Shown here: positions 2,657 to 45,349 of the stretch, one piece after another
Layout: each line of letters opens with the position of its first letter
How positions within the stretch are numbered: the first letter of the stretch is position 1
From: a virus
Strand: one strand, 5' to 3'
Virus record (IMG/VR): IMGVR_UViG_3300010373_000006
Span: 1 to 64,000 of that record
Length of the DNA stretch: 64,000 nucleotides
Position numbers and translations under genes: made by a program
The notes under the pieces: generated by a model
What the model was told of the DNA's origin: nothing
The model's database searches: none
Seen by the model: the letters and a program-made list of their open reading frames with translations, nothing else

Positions 2657-2764
2657 ATGACCGCCGCCGACGCCCTGTTCCTCCTCACTATGGGCCTGAT
2701 CATCGTCGGCCTCGCCACGATTGGCCGGCTCGCATTCCACGACAATGGAGACTCCCAGCGATGA
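2657..2764 (+). CDS. 35-aa single-span membrane peptide
   Basis: ATG 2657 follows GGAG by 6 bases. The 35-residue product is mostly one hydrophobic helix (residues 6-22, rich in Leu, Ile and Gly) with a short charged tail. Its end overlaps the next ATG by 4 bp. The function is unknown; superinfection exclusion or membrane regulation is only a guess for such early phage peptides. Confidence 0.45.
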   Translation: MTAADALFLLTMGLIIVGLATIGRLAFHDNGDSQR

Positions 2765-2934
2765 CGCTGACCGATTACCCGATGGTGTACGACTGCCCGC
2801 TACGCCAACACCGACGCCCGACCCGGCTCCAGCGCTTTGCGAGTCGCGCCCTGACGCTCTTCGTCGTCGGCGTGCTGGCCTGCTCACTGTACGTGCTGGC
2901 CGGCTGGGCGTGGGAGATGCTCGCCGGGCTGTGA
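2761..2934 (+). CDS. 57-aa membrane protein
   Basis: ATG 2761 overlaps the preceding stop. The product has a basic N-terminal part (LRQHRRPTRLQR) followed by one membrane span (about residues 31-50), so the N terminus is probably cytoplasmic. The family is not recognised. It belongs to the early rightward operon. Confidence 0.45.
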   Translation: MTLTDYPMVYDCPLRQHRRPTRLQRFASRALTLFVVGVLACSLYVLAGWAWEMLAGL

Positions 2935-3035
2935 CCGTGACTGTGCCTGCGTCGGGAGGAGATGAGGCACGCGCTGGTTTATTCGCGATGGGGCGAACGT
3001 TTATTAGACGAAATTTTCCGAGAAAGGAGACCGTG

Positions 3036-3776
3036 TTGACCGCAGTCGACGCCTTACCCCTGCCCGACCTCGAAACCTACCGTCTCGCGTACGGTAGTCA
3101 CCCCGACCGCTCCAACGGGCTGTGCGCCCTGGAACTCGTCGCGTGGATGGCCGGCGAAGCGCACAGCGATCATCCGGCATGTGCTGACGTCGTGATCGCA
3201 GCGTTCGTTCGGAGGCTCAACGATCGGATGGACGACGAAAATCGTCAACTGCTGAAGCCCTACCTACCGCGGCTAATCGGCACGGCGAACGGACCCGAGA
3301 TACAACGGCAACGCGCGTTCGTGTGCGCCGACTACGCGTGCCGCGTGTGGGTGCCCATTGCGCTCCGAGCGGCTGGACTGGAGGTTGAAGCGGCGCGGAT
3401 GGCGGCATTGCCAATGATCGCCGCCTGGTCCGCCGCCAAGTCCGCCGAGTCCGCCGCCTGGTCCGCCGCCAAGTCCGCCGAGTCCGCCGCCTGGTCCGCC
3501 GCCAAGTCCGCCGCCTGGTCCGCCGCCTGGTCCGCCTGGTCCGCCTGGTCCGCCGAGTACGCCGCCTGGTCCGCCGAGTACGCCGCCTGGTCCGCCTGGT
3601 CCTCCGAGTACGCCGCCGAGTCTGCGGGCAGGTCCGCTTGGTCTGCGGGCAGGTCCGCTTCCTTGTCCGCTGAGTCTGCCTCGTTTGCCGCTGAGGCCGC
3701 CAGGTCCGCCGCCGCGTCTAACATCAACTGGCAGGCATGCCTTGAGGCAATGCTTGCCGTAACCGACGGGAGATGA
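3036..3776 (+). CDS. protein with low-complexity WSA/KSA/ESA repeats
   Basis: TTG 3036 lies 6 bases after AAGGAG (GTG 3033 is an alternative start), giving 246 residues. The first 125 residues look like a normal globular domain (LPLPDLETYRLAYGSHPD, then a Cys-containing helical part). Residues about 128-225 are built from short units such as AAWSAAKSAES, AWSAEYA and AWSAGRSA, with a Ser-Ala pair every 3-5 residues. The last 20 residues are non-repetitive (INWQACLEAMLAV). Related repeat proteins occur in phages and planctomycetes without known function. The repeat DNA is prone to slippage. Confidence 0.6.
   Translation: MTAVDALPLPDLETYRLAYGSHPDRSNGLCALELVAWMAGEAHSDHPACADVVIAAFVRRLNDRMDDENRQLLKPYLPRLIGTANGPEIQRQRAFVCADYACRVWVPIALRAAGLEVEAARMAALPMIAAWSAAKSAESAAWSAAKSAESAAWSAAKSAAWSAAWSAWSAWSAEYAAWSAEYAAWSAWSSEYAAESAGRSAWSAGRSASLSAESASFAAEAARSAAASNINWQACLEAMLAVTDGR
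3418..3710 (+). repeat. in-frame short tandem repeats
   Basis: Imperfect 12-24 bp units built on GCCGCCTGGTCC and GCCGCCAAGTCCGCCGAG run through this stretch, all multiples of three so the frame is kept. Copies are nearly identical at 3424-3500 and drift further right, as expected from repeated unequal copying. Confidence 0.85.
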
Positions 3777-11817: not shown

Positions 11818-11856
11818 TAGGCACTATGAAGAAAACCGAGGAGAAAATCGTGAATC

Positions 11857-11928
11857 GCGCGGGAGGTGTTCAAGGTGGCACGGCGTCCAACCAGGACGCA
11901 GGGGGCGGTTCGATCCCGGCCTCCGCGC
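11857..11928 (+). tRNA. tRNA-like element, probably degenerate
   Basis: A cloverleaf can be drawn. The acceptor GCGCGGG (11857-11863) pairs with 11922-11928, or a longer stem forms with one bulged G. The D arm GTGT/GCAC encloses a GG-containing loop. The anticodon stem GCGTC/GACGC (11883-11887, 11895-11899) is perfect. The T arm contains GGTTCGATCC with loop TTCGATC (11909-11915). Defects are an A instead of the invariant T before the anticodon position (loop CAACCAG), no clear U8 and one T-stem mismatch, so an amino acid cannot be assigned. It sits behind a strong promoter and may be a decayed tRNA or a tRNA mimic. Confidence 0.4.
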
Positions 11929-11945
11929 TTTCGTTTCGCATTGGG

Positions 11946-12563
11946 ATGAAGTGTGACGCTTTTGAGTTGGTGAAGCGGTTTCATTACTCGCATCGCATCC
12001 CTTCGAATATCCAACTTATCACAAGTCTTCATTCTCCGTGTGGTCTTTTCGGAGACGCGGGTGAGCCTGTGGCTGCGGCGATTTGGACGTTCCCGCCGAC
12101 GCGATGGAGTGAGATCGTTTGGGAACTCGCCCGACTTGTTCGTCGCCCTGGCCCAAGAATTCCCTTAACTCTTCTGATTCGTTTGTCCTGTTCGCATCTC
12201 AGGACATCCGGCGCGGATTTACTTGTCTCATTCGCCGACGCCACGCACGGGCATCACGGAGGCATCTATCAGGCGTGCGGCTGGCGTTACGGCGGCTTTC
12301 GTTCACCACGAATGGACGGCGTTCTCTACGAAGGCAAATTCATTACCGGAAGACGGGCGAATCATCTTTGGGGAACACAGTCTCCCGATCGTCTTGCTTC
12401 GCAGGGAATCACTGTTGATCCCCACTACGACGAAGGGAAACACCTCTATTGGAGGGCCTTATCGCGAACTGGCGAGGCCAAGGCGAAACGGCTCAGTTTG
12501 AAGGATCTCCCTTATCCGAAGCCGTCAAGAATCGACTCCCTCTCAACCCCTGGACAGCGATGA
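11946..12563 (+). CDS. Mom-like DNA modification protein
   Basis: From ATG 11946 the 205-residue product matches the Mom family of GNAT-fold enzymes: FELVKRFHYSHRIPSN at the start, GLFGDAGEPVAAAIW, WELARLV, and SFADATHGHHGGIYQACGWRYGG followed by H-L-W-G-T. Phage Mu Mom converts adenine in DNA to a carbamoylmethyl form that blocks restriction enzymes. An alternative start, GTG 11850, has a better ribosome-binding site (GAGGAG, 6 bases) but would translate through the tRNA-like element as a Gly-rich leader. Family recognition is good; the actual base product is inferred. Confidence 0.7.
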   Translation: MKCDAFELVKRFHYSHRIPSNIQLITSLHSPCGLFGDAGEPVAAAIWTFPPTRWSEIVWELARLVRRPGPRIPLTLLIRLSCSHLRTSGADLLVSFADATHGHHGGIYQACGWRYGGFRSPRMDGVLYEGKFITGRRANHLWGTQSPDRLASQGITVDPHYDEGKHLYWRALSRTGEAKAKRLSLKDLPYPKPSRIDSLSTPGQR

Positions 12564-12572
12564 CGTAGCGAC

Positions 12573-13634
12573 GTGGCTAAACCGCAACCTTCAGCGTGGG
12601 GAAAACTGAGTCAGGGGCAGAAATACATGCCCTGGGCATTGGACATTGCACGCGCCGTGTTCGCGCTCGGATTAGGGGAAAACGTCGGCATGCTCTTCTG
12701 GCACGTGGTCGAACAATCCTGGGCTCTCCCCCGCTTTCGCACTCGCGACAAGTGGTCGGATCCGCTCCCCGTATTGCTCAAGTGCTCCGACCTCGCCGAC
12801 GAGTGGGGAACGTCGCGGCAGCGGGTCCACGAGGCCAAGAAGTGGCTGGTCGCGTCACGCTTAATTTTGGAAGATTCGGACGGCGTTTGGGTCAATAAGA
12901 ATGCCCATGAATGGATCAATCCGAAGTGCGGCCAACCGCTCTTGAATGCAAAACAACTTGCTTATGCCACCGCTGCAAGGAGTCGCGGTGAGAGTGAAAC
13001 CTGTCACGGTACACCGTTACAAGATGACACGCATGGATGTCACGGTACACCGTTACAAGAGGGCGATAAGTGTCACGGTCTACCGTTACAACCCACACAT
13101 GCATGTCACGGTCTACCGTTACAAAATGACGACGTTTGTCACGGTACACCGTTACAAAATCCCTCGCGCGTAGAAGATCGCGTGCGCGAAAATAATAAAA
13201 AATCTGAAAAAGAAAATACTACTACTGAAGCCGAAGTAGACGCGGTTGATTCGTGGGCTCAAGGCGCATTCCGAGATCGCGGCATCTACGAACTCCAGAA
13301 CATCGGCCCCAACGTTCGCCTCTGGGTACGATCCCGATTCAAGGCCGCTTGGATCAGGGAGGCTCTTCTGGCCGGCGCAGCAAACGATCCCACGCACATC
13401 GTCAGATACGCCAACGGGTGCCTTCGGAAATGGGAAAAGGCCGGAGCTTCGACATCCGAGCAGGAAGCCGCGAAGGCTGCCAAAAAGGCTGAGTCCGAAC
13501 CGATCGTCTACCACGTCGCCTCCCCCGACGCCGACGTCCGGCTCGCTCGCATCGAAGCGAACCAACGTGAGAAGAACCGGAAACTTCAAGCCGAACTCGC
13601 GGCGAAGCATGCCGCGAAGGAGATGCCCCAATGA
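12573..13634 (+). CDS. phage replication initiator, lambda O-like, containing the origin
   Basis: The 353-residue product (GTG 12573; ATG 12627 is possible) has an N-terminal winged-helix-type domain (LLKCSDLADEWGTSRQRVHEAKKWL at about residues 66-90), a linker with five CHGTPLQ/CHGLPLQ repeats (about 145-195), and a C-terminal charged helical part. It immediately precedes DnaB with a 4-bp overlap. The linker DNA is an iteron array followed by an AT-rich stretch, the same arrangement as lambda O, where the origin lies inside the initiator gene. Initiator function is inferred from this layout. Confidence 0.7.
   Translation: MAKPQPSAWGKLSQGQKYMPWALDIARAVFALGLGENVGMLFWHVVEQSWALPRFRTRDKWSDPLPVLLKCSDLADEWGTSRQRVHEAKKWLVASRLILEDSDGVWVNKNAHEWINPKCGQPLLNAKQLAYATAARSRGESETCHGTPLQDDTHGCHGTPLQEGDKCHGLPLQPTHACHGLPLQNDDVCHGTPLQNPSRVEDRVRENNKKSEKENTTTEAEVDAVDSWAQGAFRDRGIYELQNIGPNVRLWVRSRFKAAWIREALLAGAANDPTHIVRYANGCLRKWEKAGASTSEQEAAKAAKKAESEPIVYHVASPDADVRLARIEANQREKNRKLQAELAAKHAAKEMPQ
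13002..13157. repeat. five origin iterons
   Basis: Five 21-bp copies of TGTCACGGT(A/C)(C/T)ACCGTTACAA start at 13002, 13038, 13071, 13104 and 13137, that is 36, 33, 33 and 33 bp apart, close to whole helical turns. Each has an inner near-palindrome ACGGT/ACCGT. They are in frame with the protein and encode its CHGxPLQ repeats. Confidence 0.85.
13183..13230. other. AT-rich unwinding region of the predicted origin
   Basis: Immediately right of the iterons, GAAAATAATAAAAAATCTG and the following AAAGAAAATACTACTACTG are strikingly A-rich on one strand in an otherwise GC-rich gene. This is where a duplex-unwinding element would be expected. Confidence 0.65.
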
Positions 13635-15028
13635 CGCTTGCATTCAAGCCTCAGCACGACCGCCCGGCACCGATGCCGCCGCGGCTCCCGCCCCAGAACC
13701 TCGAAGCTGAGCGAAGCGTTCTCGGCGCGGTGCTGATCGACAATGCCACGATGAACGAAATCGCGACGATTCTTCGGCCCGATGATTTCTACCGCGACAC
13801 ACACCAGATCGTCTATCGAGCCATGCTCGACATGCGGAACGGCGGGAAGCCGATCGACACCTTGACGCTCGCCGACACGCTCATTCATCGCGGGCAGTTC
13901 GACGAAGTCGGTGGGGACGAATTTCTGGCCAGTCTGTTCGACTGTACGCCTCACGGTGCCAACGGTAAGCACCACGCGGAAATCGTTCGAGAGAAAGCGA
14001 TCAAGCGTGAGTCGATCGCTGTAGCGAACGAGATTTTGCGGGACGGGTACGCCGAAGAGACAACGGCTGACGAATTCCTTACGTCTGCGGAACGCCGGAT
14101 TTTTACCATCACGGCATCGCGTATCAAATCCCGCGTGGTGACCGGCGCTCAGGCGGCCGCGGCGGCACTGGAAAACATCTATGCCCGGCTCGAAGGTTCC
14201 GCGCAGGGGATTCAGACTGGGCTTCACGCCATCGACGAAGTGATCGACGGTTTGCGGCCCGGCAACCTGATCATCATCGCGGCTCGTCCGAGCCAGGGGA
14301 AAAGCGCTCTGGCGATGAACCTTGCCGAACGCGCGGCCTACCAGGCTGGGATTTACACCAGCTTCATCAGCCTCGAAATGGACTACGAGGAACTTGGCAA
14401 ACGGCTCCTATCGAGCCAGAGCCGTATCGACGCCGGCCGTTTCAAGGCACCGGAAAGGCTGACGCAGAATGACCTCGGGTTGCTCGCGCGGAAGGTTCAC
14501 GAATTGACCGGAGGCCAGCTCGATATCGACGACACGCCGGGGCGGACGATCTCTCAAATCGGCGCGATCGCGAGGCACCTGAAGGCCACGAAGGGTCTTG
14601 GCCTGATGATTGTCGACTACCTCGGGAAGATCGACGGTCAGCCCCAAAGAGGCGAGTCCCGACAGGCCGAAGTATCGCGGATCTCCTCGGGACTGAAGAA
14701 CATCGCCCGCGAGGTTCAGATCCCGATGGTTGTGCTCCATCAACTCAACCGCCAGAGCGAACTGCGTGAGGACCGACGGCCGCGGCTCGCGGACCTCCGC
14801 GACTCCGGCCAGATCGAGGCTGATGCCGATGTGGTCGTGCTCTTGCACCGGCATGAGTTTTACCATCCCGGCGAGCGCGCGAACGAGGCCGACGCGTTCA
14901 TCGCGAAGAACCGGATGGGAGAGACGAAAGCTGTCCGTCTCGCGTTCTTCGGCGGTGTTTCGCGGTTCGAGAACCTGGCGCACTCGAATCAGAATTGCCA
15001 AAGCGACTGGGAAGAAAAGGTCTTCTGA
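13631..15028 (+). CDS. dnaB: replicative DNA helicase DnaB
   Basis: The 465-residue protein has the DnaB N-terminal domain (PPQNLEAERSVLGAVLIDN; DFYRDTHQIVYRAML) and the RecA-fold helicase domain, with Walker A AARPSQGKSALAMN near residues 217-230, ISLEM, MIVDYLGKI (Walker B) and the LHQLNR/LADLRDSGQIEADADVV segment. Length and order match cellular DnaB. It unwinds DNA ahead of the phage fork after loading by the upstream initiator, with which it overlaps by 4 bp. Confidence 0.95.
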   Translation: MTLAFKPQHDRPAPMPPRLPPQNLEAERSVLGAVLIDNATMNEIATILRPDDFYRDTHQIVYRAMLDMRNGGKPIDTLTLADTLIHRGQFDEVGGDEFLASLFDCTPHGANGKHHAEIVREKAIKRESIAVANEILRDGYAEETTADEFLTSAERRIFTITASRIKSRVVTGAQAAAAALENIYARLEGSAQGIQTGLHAIDEVIDGLRPGNLIIIAARPSQGKSALAMNLAERAAYQAGIYTSFISLEMDYEELGKRLLSSQSRIDAGRFKAPERLTQNDLGLLARKVHELTGGQLDIDDTPGRTISQIGAIARHLKATKGLGLMIVDYLGKIDGQPQRGESRQAEVSRISSGLKNIAREVQIPMVVLHQLNRQSELREDRRPRLADLRDSGQIEADADVVVLLHRHEFYHPGERANEADAFIAKNRMGETKAVRLAFFGGVSRFENLAHSNQNCQSDWEEKVF

Positions 15029-18356: not shown

Positions 18357-18986
18357 ATGCCCCAGAAGCCTATTCCTGCGCGCCTCCGAGGTCAAATCCA
18401 AGTTACGCCGGAATCGCTTTTTCCGGAGATCCTCCGGGTTGGCGGGCTTACCGTCGAACCGGATGGCTCGATTTGGAGGACACTCGTTAATCGTGGCGGG
18501 CATCTGCTTCCGTGCGAAAAACGCAGGGCCGAGCACTGCACTTCCACTCAGGCCGGTGAGCGCTATCTCCAAGTGCGAGCGATGGTTGGAGGCCATCGCT
18601 ACTGCGTCTGCGCTCACAGGATCGTTTACTGGAAGTTCTTTGGGACAATGCCGGAAGACAAGGAAGTCAATCACGCCAATGGCCGCAAGACCGACAATCG
18701 TCCGGTGAACCTCGAACTGGTTAGCTCGTCTGAGAATACCCGCCACGCTCATCGAACCGGACTCAAAGATCAATACGGCCAACGAAATCCTGCCGCCAAG
18801 TTGACTGATCGGCAAGTGGCCGAAATTAGGCTTGCCTATGCCTGTGGCGGGATTTCTCAGCAATCGCTGGCGGAAGAATATGGGGTGAGGTTTCAGCACA
18901 TTTCTCGGCTGATTCGGGGTCAACGTCGTGGCAAACAGGCTGGCCCTGTTTCGAGTTGCGACCACAGACGAAAGGGGAACGGCTAA
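18357..18986 (+). CDS. HNH homing endonuclease with helix-turn-helix
   Basis: ATG 18357 follows GGGAGGG by 6 bases. The 209-residue product has an HNH_3-type core: CAHRIVYWKFFGTMPEDKEV, then NHANGRKTDNRPVNLELVSS and SENTRHAH. A C-terminal helix-turn-helix follows (LTDRQVAEIRLAYACGG ... HISRLIRG). This is the usual build of free-standing phage homing endonucleases, which cut cognate DNA to spread their own gene. It has its own promoter and interrupts the metabolic gene row. Confidence 0.85.
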   Translation: MPQKPIPARLRGQIQVTPESLFPEILRVGGLTVEPDGSIWRTLVNRGGHLLPCEKRRAEHCTSTQAGERYLQVRAMVGGHRYCVCAHRIVYWKFFGTMPEDKEVNHANGRKTDNRPVNLELVSSSENTRHAHRTGLKDQYGQRNPAAKLTDRQVAEIRLAYACGGISQQSLAEEYGVRFQHISRLIRGQRRGKQAGPVSSCDHRRKGNG

Positions 18987-18990
18987 CGAA

Positions 18991-19893
18991 ATGGGTAATT
19001 ACTCGAACATCCAATGGTGCGACTCTACGGTCAACGGCACCACGGGTTGCGACGGCTGTGAGTTGTGGCCCGGGCCTTGCTACGCCGGCTATCTCCACAC
19101 CACACGGTTGGCCCTGTCGCTTCCCGCGCTCTACGCCCGCGATTTCACGGAAGTGCGGCTTGCCCCCGGCCGGATGGTCAAGGCTGCCGGGTGGGCCGAC
19201 ATGAGGGGCCGCGCTCGCCCCACGAAGCCCTGGATTCCACCCGAAACACCCCGCCTCATCTTCGTTGGGGACATGGGGGATCTGTTCTCGAAGGCCGTAC
19301 CATTCGATTACGTCTACAAGGAAGTCATTGTCAACGCACGTTCGGCCAAGGGTTCCCGACACAATTGGCTCCTGCTGACGAAGTACCCCCGGCGCATGGC
19401 TGAGTTCGCAGATTTGCTCATCAGCCAGAATGACCCTTGGCCTGAAAACGTCTGGGCCGGAACGTCGGTCACGCGAGCCAAGACCCTGAGCCGTCTTGAT
19501 CACCTGAAGCGCGTCCCCGCTCGAATTCGCTACGTCAGCGTCGAGCCGATGCTAGAGAATATCGACCTCACCCCTTACTTGAGGTGGCTCTCTTGGGCGA
19601 TTCTGGGTGGCGAGAGCGACCAGTCGCCGCACAAGGCCCGCCCCTTCGATCTCGCATGTGCACGCTCGATCCGCGATCAGTGCAAGACCGCTGGGGTGCC
19701 GTTCTTCCTGAAGCAACTCGGGAGTCGTCCTTACGACTCAAATATCAAGATGCATGCTCGGAACCAGGAGCGCGTCACGAACGAAGTCTCGCTCCGCGAC
19801 TCCCACGGCGGCGACATGACCGAGTGGCCCGAGGATCTTCGCGTGCGGGAGATGCCCGAGGTTGGCGCTGTGGTGACAGGAGCATCGTCATGA
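18991..19893 (+). CDS. DUF5131 / phage Gp37-Gp68 family protein
   Basis: The 300-residue product matches the DUF5131 family: SNIQWCDSTVNGTTGC at the start with nearby Cys residues (CDGCELWPGPCYAG), IFVGDMGDLF, WLLLTKYPRRM, VWAGTSV and WAILGGESDQ. These proteins are widespread in phages and have a radical-SAM/TIM-barrel-like core; no reaction is established to my knowledge. A weak GGGGAA site precedes ATG 18991. Confidence 0.75.
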   Translation: MGNYSNIQWCDSTVNGTTGCDGCELWPGPCYAGYLHTTRLALSLPALYARDFTEVRLAPGRMVKAAGWADMRGRARPTKPWIPPETPRLIFVGDMGDLFSKAVPFDYVYKEVIVNARSAKGSRHNWLLLTKYPRRMAEFADLLISQNDPWPENVWAGTSVTRAKTLSRLDHLKRVPARIRYVSVEPMLENIDLTPYLRWLSWAILGGESDQSPHKARPFDLACARSIRDQCKTAGVPFFLKQLGSRPYDSNIKMHARNQERVTNEVSLRDSHGGDMTEWPEDLRVREMPEVGAVVTGASS

Positions 19894-22310: not shown

Positions 22311-22997
22311 GTGAAGGTCTATCTTGCATCGCCGAATACGCAACAGCAGGCAGAGCACGCCGCCGATATGCCGGTGTTGCTCTCGTTTGCGTGCTATTCG
22401 AGTTGGCAGGATAGATATCAGCAAACCTATTCCCGCATCCTGATCGACTCGGGCGCTTACTCGGAACTCAACAGCGGCAAGATGATCGAACTCCCGGCCT
22501 ACATCGACTGGGCGGCGCGATGGACTGGCCACGCCGACGCCGTGGCAGGACTCGACGACATTCGCGGTGACTGGAAGCGGTCGCTTGCGAACTACGAGCG
22601 ATTCCCCGGCGGGTTTCCCACCTTTCATGAGACCGACCCGCCCGAACTTCTGGATGAGTTGATCCCTATGGCTCGCGAGCGTGGCGGATGGCTGGGAATC
22701 GGACTCTTACCGCCGCGCGAGGGAAAAGAGACGTGGGTTCGCGAAACGTGCTCTCGAATCCCCGACGACCTTCACGTTCACGGCTGGGCACTTAGGCGAT
22801 ACACGCACGTTCGGCGGCTCGATTCCGTCGATTCAACAAATTGGTGGCGCGATGCTATGAAACTGCGAACACTTCCGGACTTATCGCACCTGACGTATGG
22901 TGAATGCCTTGAAATCGTCGTGAAGCGCTACCAGCGATGGGGGCGAGAGGTTCGCGAGTCCAAGGGAATGCCGCTTTTTGATGAGGTGGTATCATGA
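22311..22997 (+). CDS. DpdA-like DNA transglycosylase (TGT superfamily)
   Basis: The 228-residue product carries LIDSGAYSELNSG near residues 42-54, matching the D-S-G-(A/G)-(F/Y) catalytic motif of tRNA-guanine transglycosylases and phage DpdA, followed by DAVAGLDDIRGD and GGWLGIGLLP barrel segments. DpdA swaps guanine in DNA for a 7-deazaguanine. The stop overlaps the start of queE by 4 bp, which strongly supports a deazaguanine role. It is shorter than many TGT proteins, and the exact base inserted cannot be told from sequence. Confidence 0.65.
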   Translation: MKVYLASPNTQQQAEHAADMPVLLSFACYSSWQDRYQQTYSRILIDSGAYSELNSGKMIELPAYIDWAARWTGHADAVAGLDDIRGDWKRSLANYERFPGGFPTFHETDPPELLDELIPMARERGGWLGIGLLPPREGKETWVRETCSRIPDDLHVHGWALRRYTHVRRLDSVDSTNWWRDAMKLRTLPDLSHLTYGECLEIVVKRYQRWGREVRESKGMPLFDEVVS

Positions 22998-23629
22998 AGA
23001 CCTACGCCGTGAAGGAAATGATCAAGACCCTCCAGGGCGAGGGCTTCCACGCGGGCCGCGCGGCGATCCTCTGCCGGTTCGCGGGCTGTAACCTCTGGTC
23101 GGGGCGTGAAAAGGATCGCGCCTCGGCCGTCTGTCGGTTCTGCGATACGGATTTCATCGGCGTCAACGGCGAGAACGGAGGGCGGTACACGGCGGCAACG
23201 CTCGCATCGCGAGCTGCCGAATTATGGGGTAGCGATCGCACGCACCGTTTCATTTTTCTCACCGGCGGGGAACCGATGCTACAGGTCGATTCGGTGTTGA
23301 TCGACGCGCTGCATCGCTTCGGATTCTTCGTACAGGTCGAGACCAACGGGACGCTGCCGGTGCCGCCCTGCCTGGATTGGATCACGGTGAGCCCGAAGGC
23401 TGGTGCCGAATTCAGGCAAATGAGCGGGCAGGAGTTGAAGTTGGTCTATCCGCAGGCCGGCGCGGAACCCGAGCGATACGCCGGATTGACAGGCTTCCGC
23501 GACTTCCTTTTGCAGCCGATGGATGGCCCGGCGAAAGAGGCGAACACGCGAGCGGCAATCGAGTATTGCTTGGCTCATCCGCAATGGAGGCTCAGCACGC
23601 AAGTTCATAAACTGATCGGTGTGCGATAG
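22994..23629 (+). CDS. queE: 7-carboxy-7-deazaguanine synthase QueE
   Basis: The 211-residue radical-SAM enzyme begins VKEMIKTLQGEGFHAGRAA and has the QueE-specific cluster motif C32-x14-C47-x2-C50 followed by DTDF, then FLTGGEPMLQ, VETNGT, SPKAG and the closing LSTQVHKLIGVR. QueE contracts 6-carboxytetrahydropterin to 7-carboxy-7-deazaguanine. QueC, QueD and FolE homologues are not in this window, so precursors must come from the host or elsewhere in the phage. It is translationally coupled to the DpdA-like gene. Confidence 0.92.
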   Translation: MKTYAVKEMIKTLQGEGFHAGRAAILCRFAGCNLWSGREKDRASAVCRFCDTDFIGVNGENGGRYTAATLASRAAELWGSDRTHRFIFLTGGEPMLQVDSVLIDALHRFGFFVQVETNGTLPVPPCLDWITVSPKAGAEFRQMSGQELKLVYPQAGAEPERYAGLTGFRDFLLQPMDGPAKEANTRAAIEYCLAHPQWRLSTQVHKLIGVR

Positions 23630-27411: not shown

Positions 27412-28161
27412 TCACAATTCGCAATGGTGCTCATCACTTCTCCGCGCCTCCATCTCAGCCAGCCGCTTCATGTCCTCCATCGCCGCTTCGTTGTCCTCGA
27501 AAAATCGCACCGGCGAGACACGCTCCGGTGAACTCGCGTCGTAAATCATCATTGCGGCGAGTGGCGTATCGAAAAATCGCTCCAGGGCACTCCCGGCCTC
27601 GCCTGCGAGATGGACGACCCAGCCGGCGCGACAGTGGGTCTTGTCGCACTCGTGCCAAGTGTCCATTTTGAGCGCATCGCAGTTCGACGCCGATGCATAA
27701 ACGGCCTGATGGATGTGCGCGATCGTCGGCGTTGGCGGAGGGCCGAATTGACCGGAGGCGACCGCGTCAGGATCACCTTGGCAGCGCGAGCAGCCCGAGC
27801 AGTCCGAGCAGCGCGAGCAGTCCGAGCAGCGCGAGCAGTCCGAGCAGTCCAAGCAGAGCGAGCAGCGCGAGCAGCGCGAGCAGCGCGAGCAGCCCGAGCA
27901 GCCCGAGCAGCCCGAGCAGCCCGAGCAGCCCCAGCAGTCCGAGCAGTCCGAGCAGTCCGAGCAGTCCAAGCAGAGCGAGCAGCGCGAGCAGCCCGAGCAG
28001 CGCGAGCAGTCCGAGCAGTCCGAGCAGCCCGAGCAGCCCGAGCAGTCCGAGCAGCCCGAGCAGCCTTTTAGGCTGTCCAGGGCCTCCCTTGCGGCCTCAA
28101 TGCTGCCGAAATATTTGGCCGAGCATTTGTTGCCGTTGCTGTCTTCTACCCACGTTTCCAT
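27412..28161 (-). CDS. cysteine-rich (Cys-Ser-x)n repeat protein
   Basis: The 249-residue product starts with a 32-residue normal segment (WVEDSNGNKCSAKYFGSIEA), then about 95 residues in which cysteine recurs every third position (C-S-G, C-S-D, C-S-R, with rare C-L-D and C-W-G), then a globular C-terminal domain (DTWHECDKTHCRAGWVVHLA, ALERFFDTPLAAMMIYDAS, VRFFEDNEAAMEDMKRLAE). The C-terminal domain is known in other phages next to varied repeats. A repeat with a Cys every third residue could bind metal or form a beta-solenoid; this is inference. ATG 28161 follows AAGGA by 8 bases. Confidence 0.7.
   Translation of the reverse strand: METWVEDSNGNKCSAKYFGSIEAAREALDSLKGCSGCSDCSGCSGCSDCSDCSRCSGCSRCSLCLDCSDCSDCSDCWGCSGCSGCSGCSGCSRCSRCSRCSLCLDCSDCSRCSDCSRCSDCSGCSRCQGDPDAVASGQFGPPPTPTIAHIHQAVYASASNCDALKMDTWHECDKTHCRAGWVVHLAGEAGSALERFFDTPLAAMMIYDASSPERVSPVRFFEDNEAAMEDMKRLAEMEARRSDEHHCEL
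27783..28064 (-). repeat. 9-bp tandem repeat array encoding Cys-Ser-x
   Basis: About thirty 9-bp units of the form GAGCAG(T/C/C)CC or GAGCAGCGC on the plus strand run without interruption; the reading frame is kept and only the third residue of each triplet varies. Larger blocks are duplicated as well, for example the segment containing CCAAGCAGAGC at 27847 and 27965. Confidence 0.9.
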
Positions 28162-32607: not shown

Positions 32608-33407
32608 CCTCGACTGATCCCCTCGTTACTGACGCCTCGGGCAAGCCGATTTATGGCATGGGACTCGTCTCGTCGGCTTCCGAACGTCATCTCATGGCCG
32701 CGTTCGGCGACCATTACCCGGTTGTGCCGCGCGACCAGTGGAAGCCGATCAGTTTCAAGGATGTCTACCCGTTCAAGATTCTCAATCAAGGTGGGCACGG
32801 CTCATGCGTCGGGCATGGAACCGGAACCGCTGCGAACAAGGTGTGGCAGCGTAACGGAGGTGCCCCGCACACGTTCTCCTCGTGCTTTGTCTACGGAATG
32901 ATCAACGGCGGACGGGACGCCGGCGCGTCGATCGTCGCGGCCCTACACAGCCTTGAACGCGATGGGGTTTGTTTTCAGGAGCAGGTTCCCGAGGGCATGG
33001 TTTACGCTAGCCAATTCCCGCCCGAGGCCCAGCAAATCGCTAATCGCTTCAAGGGGTGGAAAGGCTTTGTTTGCTCGTCCGTCGATGAAATGGTTTCCGG
33101 TTTGCTTCACGGCGGCATGCCGGTCTACGGGGTGGCGGTCGGTGGTGCCTTTCAGGGCTATCGCTCCGGCTGGATTCAGGTGTCTGGCGGTTGGGCAAAC
33201 CACTGTGTCACGGCCGACGGACTGATCAACGAAGGCGGCGTCTGGGGCTTGGACGGAATTAACTCCTGGGGTGAAGCGTGGGGCGACAAGGGGCGATTCA
33301 AGATCCGCCTGGAGTCGATCGCGCGTGATGAACTGTTTGTGCTCATGGCGCCTCCTGACGATCCGCAGGAAACCTCGTTGCCTCCGAAGGTGGAAACTCT
33401 CGCATGA
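32604..33407 (+). CDS. papain-like (C1A) cysteine peptidase
   Basis: The 267-residue protein has the C1A active-site set: Gln62 in ILNQGGHGSCVGHG, catalytic Cys68, His200 in GGWANHCVTADG and Asn220 in GINSWGEAWGDKGRFKI, the last also matching the N-S-W-G signature. No signal peptide or propeptide is evident. Papain-type enzymes are uncommon in phages; possible roles are virion or lysis protein processing or attack on host proteins. It is coupled by 4-bp overlaps to membrane and secreted proteins on both sides. Confidence 0.85.
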   Translation: MTSTDPLVTDASGKPIYGMGLVSSASERHLMAAFGDHYPVVPRDQWKPISFKDVYPFKILNQGGHGSCVGHGTGTAANKVWQRNGGAPHTFSSCFVYGMINGGRDAGASIVAALHSLERDGVCFQEQVPEGMVYASQFPPEAQQIANRFKGWKGFVCSSVDEMVSGLLHGGMPVYGVAVGGAFQGYRSGWIQVSGGWANHCVTADGLINEGGVWGLDGINSWGEAWGDKGRFKIRLESIARDELFVLMAPPDDPQETSLPPKVETLA

Positions 33408-37022: not shown

Positions 37023-38570
37023 ATGCGATTTTTTATGGGTCCTTCCGCTTATGCGTTGCGAAGGACGTCGCACCGGGAACAGCCCATTTATGCAATACAC
37101 TTTCTTTTTTTGAGCGTTTCGCCCTTGAGCCAAGCCAGCAAAGCCCGTCGTTCTGACGCCCGAAAACCCGCGCAAGATGAGCCCGTAAAGGCGCTTGCGC
37201 CCGTCTCGCGAGTCACGATCGACGCCCTGACGCCCGACCCCGCGAACCTCCGCAAGCACACCGATCGCAACGTCGCGGCGGTGGACGCCAGCGTGAAGCG
37301 TTTCGGTCCCGCACGCTCGATCGTGATCGACGAAAACGGCGTCGTTTGCGCCGGAAATCGCACGCTCGAAAGCGCCAAAGCGGCGGGTTTCACCGATGTT
37401 TTGATCGTTGACCCCGAGCCGGGGCAGTTGGTCGCGGTGCGGCGCAAGGACTGGAGCCCCACCGAGGCGGTCGCGTACGGCATCGCGGACAACCGCTCGT
37501 CGGACCTCGGGGCGAACTCGTGGGAAGACGTGGCGCTGGCCGAGACGCTTCGGGCGATGCAGAGCGAGGCGTTCGATCTGGGAGCGGTCGGGTTTACGGG
37601 GGACGAGGTTGACGAGCTGGTGAAGGGGCTGGGGAATGCGTTGGTGGGTGGTGAAGGGGGATCGAGCGGCGAAGACCAAGGCGCTCAGCACGACAAGGCC
37701 GACGAATTGCAGGCGAAGTGGGACGTGAAGACGGGCGACCTGTGGGTGATCCCGAGCAAGACCGGGAAGGGCGAACATCGACTGCTGTGCGGGGACTCGA
37801 CGAAGGCGGAGGACGTGGCGAGGGTGATGGCGGGGGAGAAGGCGGACCTGTGCTTCACGAGCCCGCCCTACGGCCAGCAGCGCGATTACGAGAGTGGTGG
37901 TATCGGCGACTGGGATGCGCTCATGTGTGGCGTGTTCGGCAATCTGCCGATGGCGGACGCAGGGCAGGTGCTCGTCAACCTCGGGCTCATTCATCGGGAC
38001 GGCGAGTGGATTCCGTACTGGGATGGGTGGATTCAATGGATGAGAGAGCAAGGATGGAGGCGGTTTGGGTGGTACGTGTGGGATCAAGGAAGCGGGTTGC
38101 CAGGCGACTGGAATGGCCGGCTTGCGCCATCGCATGAGTTCGTGTTTCACTTCAATCGGGAGCCAGTCAAACCCGAAAAAACTGTGGCCAAGAAACCGGA
38201 AAGCGTGCGAGATAGAACCGGCGACACCACCATGAGAGGCGACGATCCTGTCGGTCGAACATGGTCGTCCGGCGAAGCCTCGCTTCAGACTCATAAGGTT
38301 TCCGACAGCGTTATACGGGTTCAGCGGCAATGCGGCCCTGTGATGAAAGACACCCATCATCCGGCGGTTTACCCGGTAGGTTTCCCTGAATTCGCAATGA
38401 AATCTTGGCCTGGTATTGCCTACGAGCCCTTCTCCGGTTCCGGAACTACCATCGTCGCCGCCGAGCAAACCGGTCGCCTCGCGAGAGGCATTGAGATATC
38501 GCCCAAGTACGTCGCCGTCGCCCTTGAACGGCTCGCCGGTCTCGGTCTCGAACCCCGCCGCGCATCATGA
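37023..38570 (+). CDS. ParB-like domain - DNA N-methyltransferase fusion
   Basis: The 515-residue frame starts at ATG 37023, but the first 30-45 residues are poorly supported and TTG 37110 or a later start is possible. A ParB N-terminal domain follows (VTIDALTPDPANLRKHTDRN, VCAGNRTLESAKAAG). The methylase part has the catalytic TSPPYGQQRDY near residue 280 and the AdoMet motif FSGSGTTIVAAEQTGR near 470, the beta-class order (catalytic motif first). SPPY can serve N6-adenine or N4-cytosine. Such fusions precede terminase genes in many phages. Confidence 0.85.
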   Translation: MRFFMGPSAYALRRTSHREQPIYAIHFLFLSVSPLSQASKARRSDARKPAQDEPVKALAPVSRVTIDALTPDPANLRKHTDRNVAAVDASVKRFGPARSIVIDENGVVCAGNRTLESAKAAGFTDVLIVDPEPGQLVAVRRKDWSPTEAVAYGIADNRSSDLGANSWEDVALAETLRAMQSEAFDLGAVGFTGDEVDELVKGLGNALVGGEGGSSGEDQGAQHDKADELQAKWDVKTGDLWVIPSKTGKGEHRLLCGDSTKAEDVARVMAGEKADLCFTSPPYGQQRDYESGGIGDWDALMCGVFGNLPMADAGQVLVNLGLIHRDGEWIPYWDGWIQWMREQGWRRFGWYVWDQGSGLPGDWNGRLAPSHEFVFHFNREPVKPEKTVAKKPESVRDRTGDTTMRGDDPVGRTWSSGEASLQTHKVSDSVIRVQRQCGPVMKDTHHPAVYPVGFPEFAMKSWPGIAYEPFSGSGTTIVAAEQTGRLARGIEISPKYVAVALERLAGLGLEPRRAS

Positions 38571-42853: not shown

Positions 42854-45349
42854 ATGGCAGAAACCTTGAATAGCGCAGGCGATTCGCACGCACATTCCTT
42901 GATTGGAAGCGGCGCCGTAGACAAGACAAGTTCATGGTCCTTCAGTGCCGCCGATGGCAACGCACTGCTTGGCCCAAACGGCGACGACTGGGGGCGTTTT
43001 GGCGCCTGCCATCTTGGTATCAATAGTGACTCGCCCGACCAGACGCGCGGGCATTGGTCCTATCCGTTCGCGAAACTCAAGGATGGCAAGACGACACTCT
43101 TTCGCTCTGCCATCACAGCGATTCGCCAGCGCGCCGGCCAGCAAGGAAGCACCGCGATTTTCGATGCAGCCGGGCGGCTCCTCGAACAGATCGACGGCAA
43201 GAAGAATGCTCAGTCATCGGCTCCGGTCACGCTTCGCGCTGTGGCCACGTTCGACGCAGAGGCCGCGGCGACAAACGACGCAGATCCCGCCGCGCCACGC
43301 AAGCCGCCCACGTTCACGATGGTCGCCAACACCGGCTCCGTCCCGATGCGACTGGAAGGCTGGCGTTACCCGGTCGTGCTCGACTTCGCCGGCGCCAACA
43401 TCCCGAGCCAATCCCTGCCGATCCGCCTTCACCATGACTCGGCGCAAGGCGTAGGCCACACCACGTCAATCGGCTTCGACAACGGCAACATGGTTGCAAA
43501 AGGTGTTGTCTCGCGTGATACGCCATCATCTCGTGATGTGACCAGTTCTGCGAAGAACGGCTTCCCCTGGCAGGCAAGTGTCGGCGCCTCGCCGGATCAA
43601 GTCGAGTTCGTCAAAGAGGGCCAGAGCGCGACCGCTAACGGCCGCATGTTCTCCGGCCCAGTGAATATCGTCCGCTCGTGGACGCTCGGCGAAATCAGTT
43701 TCGTCGACCGCGGCGCGGATGGTCAGACGTCGGCAACCGTTGCCGCGTCGCTTCCCGTTGGCTCCCAGAAAGGGAAACCATCAATGTTTGAGCAATGGTT
43801 ACAGGCCAAGGGGATCGACCCGACGGCCATCAGCGATGAGATCAAGACAGCGCTCCGTGCGGCGTACGACGCCGAGCAGGAACTGAAGGCCAATGCGGCA
43901 ATGACTGCTCAGACCGTACAGGTCAACGCAGCCAACGGTGCCGCGCAAAACGGAGTCCAGGCCAACCCGTCCATCGCCGCGACCCTTGAGCAGATCGTGC
44001 AGGCTCAGCGCGATGAGGATACTCGCGTCCGGCGGATCACGGAGATCGCAGCCGAGCACATCGCAAAGCAGCCTTGGCGGCTTGACCAGTTCGAGAAGTT
44101 GGCCAAGACGGCAATCGCCGCCAAGTCCACCGTGGCCGAATTCGAGCTCAACGCGCTTCGCCTCCGTGCCGAGAGCGGCGCGGGACCGGCCGTGCATGTC
44201 GGTGCGAGCCCCGACAGCGAAAAGAGCCAGAGCGTCCTTGAGGCTGCGATCTGCAAGACCGGACGTCTCACCAACATCGAGAAGCACTTCGACGCGCGTA
44301 CCCTCGAAGCGGCCGACAAGCACTTTCGGTACGGCATCGGCCTTCAGGAAGTGCTGATGTGCGGTGCCGCAGCCAACGGCTATCGCGGTCAGGTCAGCGA
44401 CGTCCGCGGCTTGCTCCGCGCGGCGTTCCAGACGGAGATTCGCGCGGAAGGATTCTCGCTTGTCAACATCCCCGGTATCTTGTCCAACGTCATGAACAAG
44501 TACCTCGTTGACTACTTCAACTCCGTCGAGTCTGCTTGGCGAATCATCGCCGCGATCCGCAACGCTCGCGACTTCAAGCAGATCTCGTCCTACAGCCTGA
44601 CCGGCGATCTTCAGTACGACCTGATCGGGCCGACCGGCGAGATCAAGAGCGGTTCGGTCGGGCAGACGTCGTACAACAACCAGGTCGCGACCTACGGCAA
44701 GATCCTTGCTATTACGCGGCAGGACATCATCAACGATGACCTCGGCGCCCTGATGCGTATTCCGCAACGCCTCGGTCGCGGTGCGGCACTGAAGATCAAC
44801 GACGTCTTTTATACGACGCTCCTCGCTGGCGTCGGCTCGTTCTGGGTCAGCGGCAACAACAATCTGATCACCGGCGCCACGACGACCTTGACCGCTGTTG
44901 GCTTGACCGCGGCATTGCTCAAGTTCCGCCAGCAGACCGATCCCGACGGCAAGCCGCTGGGCATCACGCCAAAGATTCTGCTCGTGCCTCCCGAACTGGA
45001 GGTTACGGGCAAGCAGTTGATGAACTCCGCATTCTTCAATACCGGCGGTTCCGCCACGACCGCGCAGGTTCCTAACATGAACACATGGCAGGGTGCGTAT
45101 AACCTTGCCGCGTCGACCTACCTCTCAAACGCGAACTACACCGGCTACTCGACAACCGCGTGGTTCTTGCTCGCCGATCCGATGGACATGCCTACCATCG
45201 AGGTTGCGTTCCTCAATGGTCGTGAAGTGCCGATGATCGAATCGGCCGAGGCCGAGTTCGACACGCTTGGCATCCAGGTCCGCGGCGTCCATGACTTCGG
45301 CGTCGCCCTTCAGGAGCAACGCGGCTCCGTTCGCTCCGCAGGCGCGTAA
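42854..45349 (+). CDS. prohead protease - scaffold - major capsid polyprotein
   Basis: One 831-residue frame combines three functions that are usually separate genes. Residues about 25-110 are a family-typical N-terminal region (WSYPFAKLKDGKTTLFRSAI). Residues 150-310 are a prohead protease with His193 in RLHHDSAQGVGH and Ser in PWQASVGASPD. Residues 320-440 are a charged helical scaffold. From about 455 the Mu gpT-like major capsid follows (MNKYLVDYFNSVESAWR, DDLGALMRIPQRLGRGAAL, LLVPPELE). Self-cleavage during maturation is expected. No internal stop or second start with a strong site was seen. Confidence 0.85.
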   Translation: MAETLNSAGDSHAHSLIGSGAVDKTSSWSFSAADGNALLGPNGDDWGRFGACHLGINSDSPDQTRGHWSYPFAKLKDGKTTLFRSAITAIRQRAGQQGSTAIFDAAGRLLEQIDGKKNAQSSAPVTLRAVATFDAEAAATNDADPAAPRKPPTFTMVANTGSVPMRLEGWRYPVVLDFAGANIPSQSLPIRLHHDSAQGVGHTTSIGFDNGNMVAKGVVSRDTPSSRDVTSSAKNGFPWQASVGASPDQVEFVKEGQSATANGRMFSGPVNIVRSWTLGEISFVDRGADGQTSATVAASLPVGSQKGKPSMFEQWLQAKGIDPTAISDEIKTALRAAYDAEQELKANAAMTAQTVQVNAANGAAQNGVQANPSIAATLEQIVQAQRDEDTRVRRITEIAAEHIAKQPWRLDQFEKLAKTAIAAKSTVAEFELNALRLRAESGAGPAVHVGASPDSEKSQSVLEAAICKTGRLTNIEKHFDARTLEAADKHFRYGIGLQEVLMCGAAANGYRGQVSDVRGLLRAAFQTEIRAEGFSLVNIPGILSNVMNKYLVDYFNSVESAWRIIAAIRNARDFKQISSYSLTGDLQYDLIGPTGEIKSGSVGQTSYNNQVATYGKILAITRQDIINDDLGALMRIPQRLGRGAALKINDVFYTTLLAGVGSFWVSGNNNLITGATTTLTAVGLTAALLKFRQQTDPDGKPLGITPKILLVPPELEVTGKQLMNSAFFNTGGSATTAQVPNMNTWQGAYNLAASTYLSNANYTGYSTTAWFLLADPMDMPTIEVAFLNGREVPMIESAEAEFDTLGIQVRGVHDFGVALQEQRGSVRSAGA

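Follow-up and report, generated by a model that had tools for sequence, protein, structure and literature searches.

An O-like initiator gene with an internal palindrome array

The locus lies in the window, the stretch of DNA analysed here, which covers 64,000 bases of a 69,197-base virus record in IMG/VR. An O-like replication initiator gene containing the presumed origin is followed, with a 4-bp overlap, by a gene for a phage DnaB replicative helicase (Table 1). Directly upstream of the initiator gene is a Mom-family DNA modification gene (11826-12563, + strand; PF25680, 1e-17), and the early region also encodes a DUF5131 protein (18928-19893, +) and a weak radical SAM match (22994-23629, +). 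The record carries an integrase gene together with terminase, portal, head-protease and tape-measure genes, and therefore represents a temperate tailed phage. Elsewhere in the window, a ParB-like/nuclease domain is fused to an N6/N4 DNA methyltransferase in a gene immediately preceding that for the terminase (37023-38570, +), and an 831-residue protein, apparently the product of a fused gene, matches both head maturation protease and major head protein families (42854-45349, +). Two ORFs without a Pfam match contain in-frame DNA repeats, with 9 copies at 2721-3776 (+) and 15 at 27412-28161 (-); these are either repetitive proteins or spurious ORFs.

Table 1 Features of the initiator-helicase locus, in window coordinates
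Feature	Position	Strand	Details
O-like replication initiator gene, contains presumed origin	12573..13634	+	353 aa, GTG start
Predicted winged-helix DNA-binding domain	12627..12992	+	~residues 19-140; AlphaFold2 pLDDT mostly 82-97; aligned to Phage_rep_O relatives
Predicted recognition helix	12813..12851	+	SRQRVHEAKKWLV; residues 81-93; helix 82-94 in AlphaFold2 model
Iteron 1	13002..13021	+	TGTCACGGTACACCGTTACA
Iteron 2	13038..13057	+	TGTCACGGTACACCGTTACA
Iteron 3	13071..13090	+	TGTCACGGTCTACCGTTACA
Iteron 4	13104..13123	+	TGTCACGGTCTACCGTTACA
Iteron 5	13137..13156	+	TGTCACGGTACACCGTTACA
A+T-rich, A-rich stretch	13189..13238	+	Presumed DNA-unwinding element
Initiator C-terminal part, presumed helicase-contacting region	13239..13634	+	Position only, by lambda O analogy
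DnaB replicative helicase, phage	13631..15028	+	PF03796 5e-81, PF00772 2e-33, phrog_19 2.5e-93

Midway through the initiator gene (13002-13156) are five perfect copies of a 20-bp interrupted palindrome, TGTCACGGT(AC/CT)ACCGTTACA, on which a 21-bp repeat unit (TGTCACGGTNNACCGTTACAA) is centred. An earlier note on this DNA had described five 21-bp in-frame iterons at 33-36-bp steps encoding CHGxPLQ, followed by an A-rich stretch and dnaB, and this description held throughout. TGTNACGGTNNACCGTNACA has five exact matches at steps of 36, 33, 33 and 33 bp, all in the single frame of the initiator ORF and encoding CHG[T/L]PLQ; the dyad symmetry of the sites was absent from the note. When up to three mismatches were allowed, shuffled windows had a mean of 0.2 matches to TGTNACGGTNNACCGTNACA, and none reached five. 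No further copies of the palindrome occur elsewhere in the 69,197-bp virus record, and a spaced-palindrome DNA pattern search of viral contigs returned nothing beyond the window.

Six of the seven iteron codons are invariant across all five copies, each with synonyms available (P ~1e-8 under independent synonymous choice). The invariant leucine codon is TTA, which makes up 3% of the leucine codons in nine neighbouring ORFs. The sole variable codon (ACA/CTA) is non-synonymous and coincides with the palindrome centre. Between the iterons, the spacer sequences have diverged. The invariance of the codons, including TTA, and the placement of the variable one at the centre of symmetry therefore point to selection on the DNA.

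Position 13189, just downstream of the last iteron, is the start of both the most A+T-rich 30-bp segment (90%) and the most A+T-rich 50-bp segment (76%) of the whole 64 kb. The order of iterons, A+T-rich tract and dnaB is that of the parts of a lambda/P22-type origin. As in O-type origin-in-initiator replicons, a palindromic iteron family lies midway along the initiator gene, an A+T-rich unwinding region directly 3' of it, and a helicase gene next to the initiator; the iteron pitch falls outside the ~18-24 bp usual for O-type replicons, a range that is perhaps not defining. GC skew, which had been proposed as a check on the origin, gave no support, with no turn at the iteron site.

The initiator is a divergent relative of lambda O

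Compared directly with Phage_rep_O (PF04492), the initiator scores 17.0 bits (E = 0.0088), below the gathering cut-off of 28.7 and over profile positions 51-95 only; it matches phrog_186 (helicase loader) at 4e-5. The phage and plasmid collections yielded a single significant relative, encoded on the plasmid pEP7_03 (29% over 143 residues, E = 4e-12). Single-protein scans of viral and genome contigs with the initiator or DnaB recovered no close relative, and a DnaB alignment was needed. A profile built from the window protein and its pEP7_03 homologue finds initiator L008 at 3e-10, then L015 and L011. L008 lies above the Phage_rep_O cut-off (32.2 bits), as does L011, which joined by iteration (8.7e-23 to PF04492). 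Across this bridge of L008, L015 and L011, profile comparison identifies the window protein as a divergent, distant relative of lambda O and P22 gp18. The earlier note had proposed a lambda O arrangement with unrelated sequence; the origin-in-initiator layout stands, with P22 18-12 a closer match than lambda O-P, but the protein is not unrelated. In L011 (2842-3987), a Phage_rep_O initiator, an HNH endonuclease domain (PF01844, 5.5e-7) is inserted in the linker beside the iterons.

AlphaFold2 predicts an N-terminal winged helix with a weak loop at residues 51-65. Residues 143-210, coinciding with the iteron-encoded segment, are disordered in the model, and the C-terminal part consists mostly of helices of low-to-moderate confidence, with high confidence at 318-350. 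Foldseek searches returned generic winged helices alone, none with an E value under 0.001.

RepA_N plasmid initiators (pSK41 and pAD1 type) likewise have origin repeats within their coding sequence, downstream of the part that encodes a winged helix, but they belong to a different protein family and are not known to have a dnaB neighbour. No RepA_N domain was found in the window initiator in Pfam at E values up to 0.1.

Iterons are widespread within related initiator genes

We surveyed 154 non-identical related initiator genes with a dyad-aware detector, scoring as positive a gene that beat all 20 of its codon shuffles. A simple 14-mer repeat detector was dropped, as it failed on P22 and picked up in-frame protein repeats in control ORFs. 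A mid-gene iteron family was found in 127 of the 154 initiators, a fraction that is not an independent count since exact duplicates alone were removed, near-identical loci were kept and many of the surveyed genes are closely related to one another; the mean relative position was 0.45. By contrast, 1 of 126 other ORFs from the same loci passed, and this comparison favours the earlier proposal of an origin inside the initiator gene. The window gene scores highest of the 154, above all of its codon shuffles.

In 112 of the 127 iteron-bearing genes (again not independent counts), the copies are spread over two or three frames, which argues that the DNA rather than the peptide is selected. Together with the mixed frames and inversion seen in pEP7_03 (below) and the predicted disorder of the encoded segment, this supports the view, also put forward in the note, that the CHGxPLQ repeat would be mainly a by-product of the DNA sites.

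The pitch of the window array is unusual, in that relatives mostly space their iterons at 17-24 bp, with an additional 29-bp group. Of the six instances of a 33-bp pitch among the surveyed genes, the window accounts for three and pEP7_03 for two. Adjacent spacings across the 127 genes form separate modes at 18-19, 22-24 and 29 bp, which are not multiples of one helical turn. We did not keep as a rule the idea that 33 bp represents 22-23 bp extended by one helical turn in unchanged phase, given that relatives also use 18-19 and 29 bp.

Recognition helices and half-sites covary weakly

Across 56 representatives, similarity of the recognition helix correlated weakly with similarity of the half-site (Mantel r = 0.19, P = 0.005; P = 0.03 given the rest of the domain), and a set of 33 representatives gave P values of 0.012 and, given the rest of the domain, 0.028. 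The window helix, RQRVHEAK, is most similar among 55 representatives to that of L110, RQRVYEAK, an initiator from an uncultured IMG/VR phage whose half-site is also the most similar (one of its sites is TGTCACGGAAAAACGTTACA, against TGTCACGGTACACCGTTACA in the window). Outside the helix, similarity between the two proteins is near background. The L110/L090 and L109/L091 initiators have a half-site, TGTNACGG, nearly identical to that of the window, but differ in pitch (22-23 bp plus a 56-bp gap) and share ~20% overall protein identity with the window initiator. The second and fourth best helix matches of the window do not share its half-site, so the pairing with L110 is suggestive, and not proof, that the window initiator reads its own iterons.

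A homologous cassette in a phage-plasmid

pEP7_03 (CP151670.1) is a circular 40.9-kb plasmid of Isosphaeraceae bacterium EP7 in which, as in the window, the homologous initiator gene lies directly upstream of DnaB. Its palindromes likewise lie mid-gene, 44, 33 and 33 bp apart, and thus share the gene position and the 33-bp pitch of the window array. Their core, CAACG-N4-CGTTG, is unlike that of the window, and whereas the window copies all lie in one frame, pEP7_03 uses two, with one copy in another frame and one inverted. Deposited as a plasmid, it encodes ParA, integrase, terminase, major head and tail families and has two genes with caspase domains; judged by its sequence, it is a planctomycete phage-plasmid.

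We scanned 46 of its 48 annotated proteins, leaving out two of ~50 residues. No recognized plasmid replication initiator appeared among the matches listed for these proteins (25 of 26 Pfam and 25 of 32 PHROG families). The O-like gene and DnaB are the replication candidates of pEP7_03, the O-like gene being the sole initiator candidate among the matches listed. A homologue of the window cassette therefore probably maintains a free replicon. The uncultured phage itself probably infects a planctomycete, a host assignment drawn from pEP7_03 alone.

Comparison with the lambda and P22 origins

The closest known arrangement is gene 18-ori-gene 12 of P22 (NC_002371), nearer than lambda O-P. There, as in the window, the origin (annotated at 32840-32984) lies inside the O-like gene 18, and the DnaB-like gene 12 follows with a 4-bp overlap. 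P22 gp18 is too distant from the window protein for direct Pfam membership of the latter, and the P22 iterons have another sequence and lie 20-24 bp apart, against 33-36 bp in the window. In lambda, four annotated iterons lie inside O, followed by P; they are 18-bp hyphenated inverted repeats that occupy, together with an A+T-rich tract, the central part of O (PMC6022878, PMC7466680). The lambda iterons occupy mixed frames at a pitch of 20-24 bp with the half-site ATCCCTC, whereas those of the window share one frame and a longer pitch. Lambda brings in the host DnaB via P, whereas the window encodes a DnaB next to its initiator.

A probable phage origin embedded in its initiator gene

The locus is very probably where replication of this temperate tailed phage starts, with the origin lying inside the phage's own O-type initiator gene; we infer binding and origin activity from comparison with known systems. 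The N-terminal winged-helix domain would bind each of the five 18-20-bp palindromes as a dimer. By the lambda model, the assembled initiator complex would then melt the A+T-rich stretch downstream and, by the P22 18-12 arrangement, the C-terminal part would load the helicase from the next gene. The CHGxPLQ segment would serve as a disordered linker, its sequence dictated largely by selection on the DNA sites.

Three other explanations of the repeats were considered. They could be a protein feature, with CHGxPLQ a motif for zinc or partner binding and the DNA likeness a result of recent duplication; the five copies do share one frame with spacings that are multiples of three, and deletion of iteron 4 in lambda also abolishes O activity in trans (PMC6022878), so the iteron-encoded segment may not be wholly dispensable. 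This reading fits poorly, however, with spacers that have diverged around invariant codons, rare TTA among them, with perfect dyad symmetry, with a variable codon that changes a residue at the palindrome centre, with predicted disorder, and with homologues whose repeats, similarly placed in the gene, use several frames or are inverted. We consider a protein-level origin of the repeats highly unlikely.

Palindromes bound by winged helices are typically operators, and the array might instead serve autoregulation or be another control site; in lambda, O binding could also affect transcription through the gene. The palindromes nevertheless sit 430 bp inside the gene and not at a promoter, with the A+T-richest tract beside them and dnaB after it; lambda and P22 have their annotated origins at this very position, which is conserved over a large family, making a role as operators rather than origin very unlikely. 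Extremely unlikely, in our assessment, is an array for some other protein, such as a parS-like partition site, placed inside the initiator gene by chance. Palindrome arrays are typical of parS and the window encodes the ParB-like/methyltransferase protein described above, but its gene is 24 kb away, a phage whose initiator has the same helix also has matching half-sites, and iterons occur inside initiators family-wide.

With an origin embedded in the initiator gene as the preferred reading, the pitch may have structural implications. Sites of 18-20 bp at a 33-bp pitch leave gaps of 13 bp, so neighbouring initiator dimers may contact each other differently from those of lambda O. More tentatively, and as a conjecture that we consider less likely than not, there may be a planctomycete O-type branch with palindromes ~33 bp apart, too far for lambda O-some contacts and so requiring a melting complex of different geometry, in which the same cassette also keeps phage-plasmids, pEP7_03 for example, as replicons.

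The mechanism is classical and the family known; what is new is the divergent branch and its unusual 33-bp pitch. The finding extends the lambda/P22 design to phages that probably infect Planctomycetota, a phylum in which few replicons are known, and the compact cassette (~2.5 kb) is a candidate vector origin. As the survey indicates, the binding sites of most O-type initiators lie within their own genes, in frames that drift freely, so that each gene combines a protein and the DNA that it targets. The O family would thereby be a self-labelled resource for work on how winged helices recognize DNA and on selection that acts at once on coding and on binding sequence.
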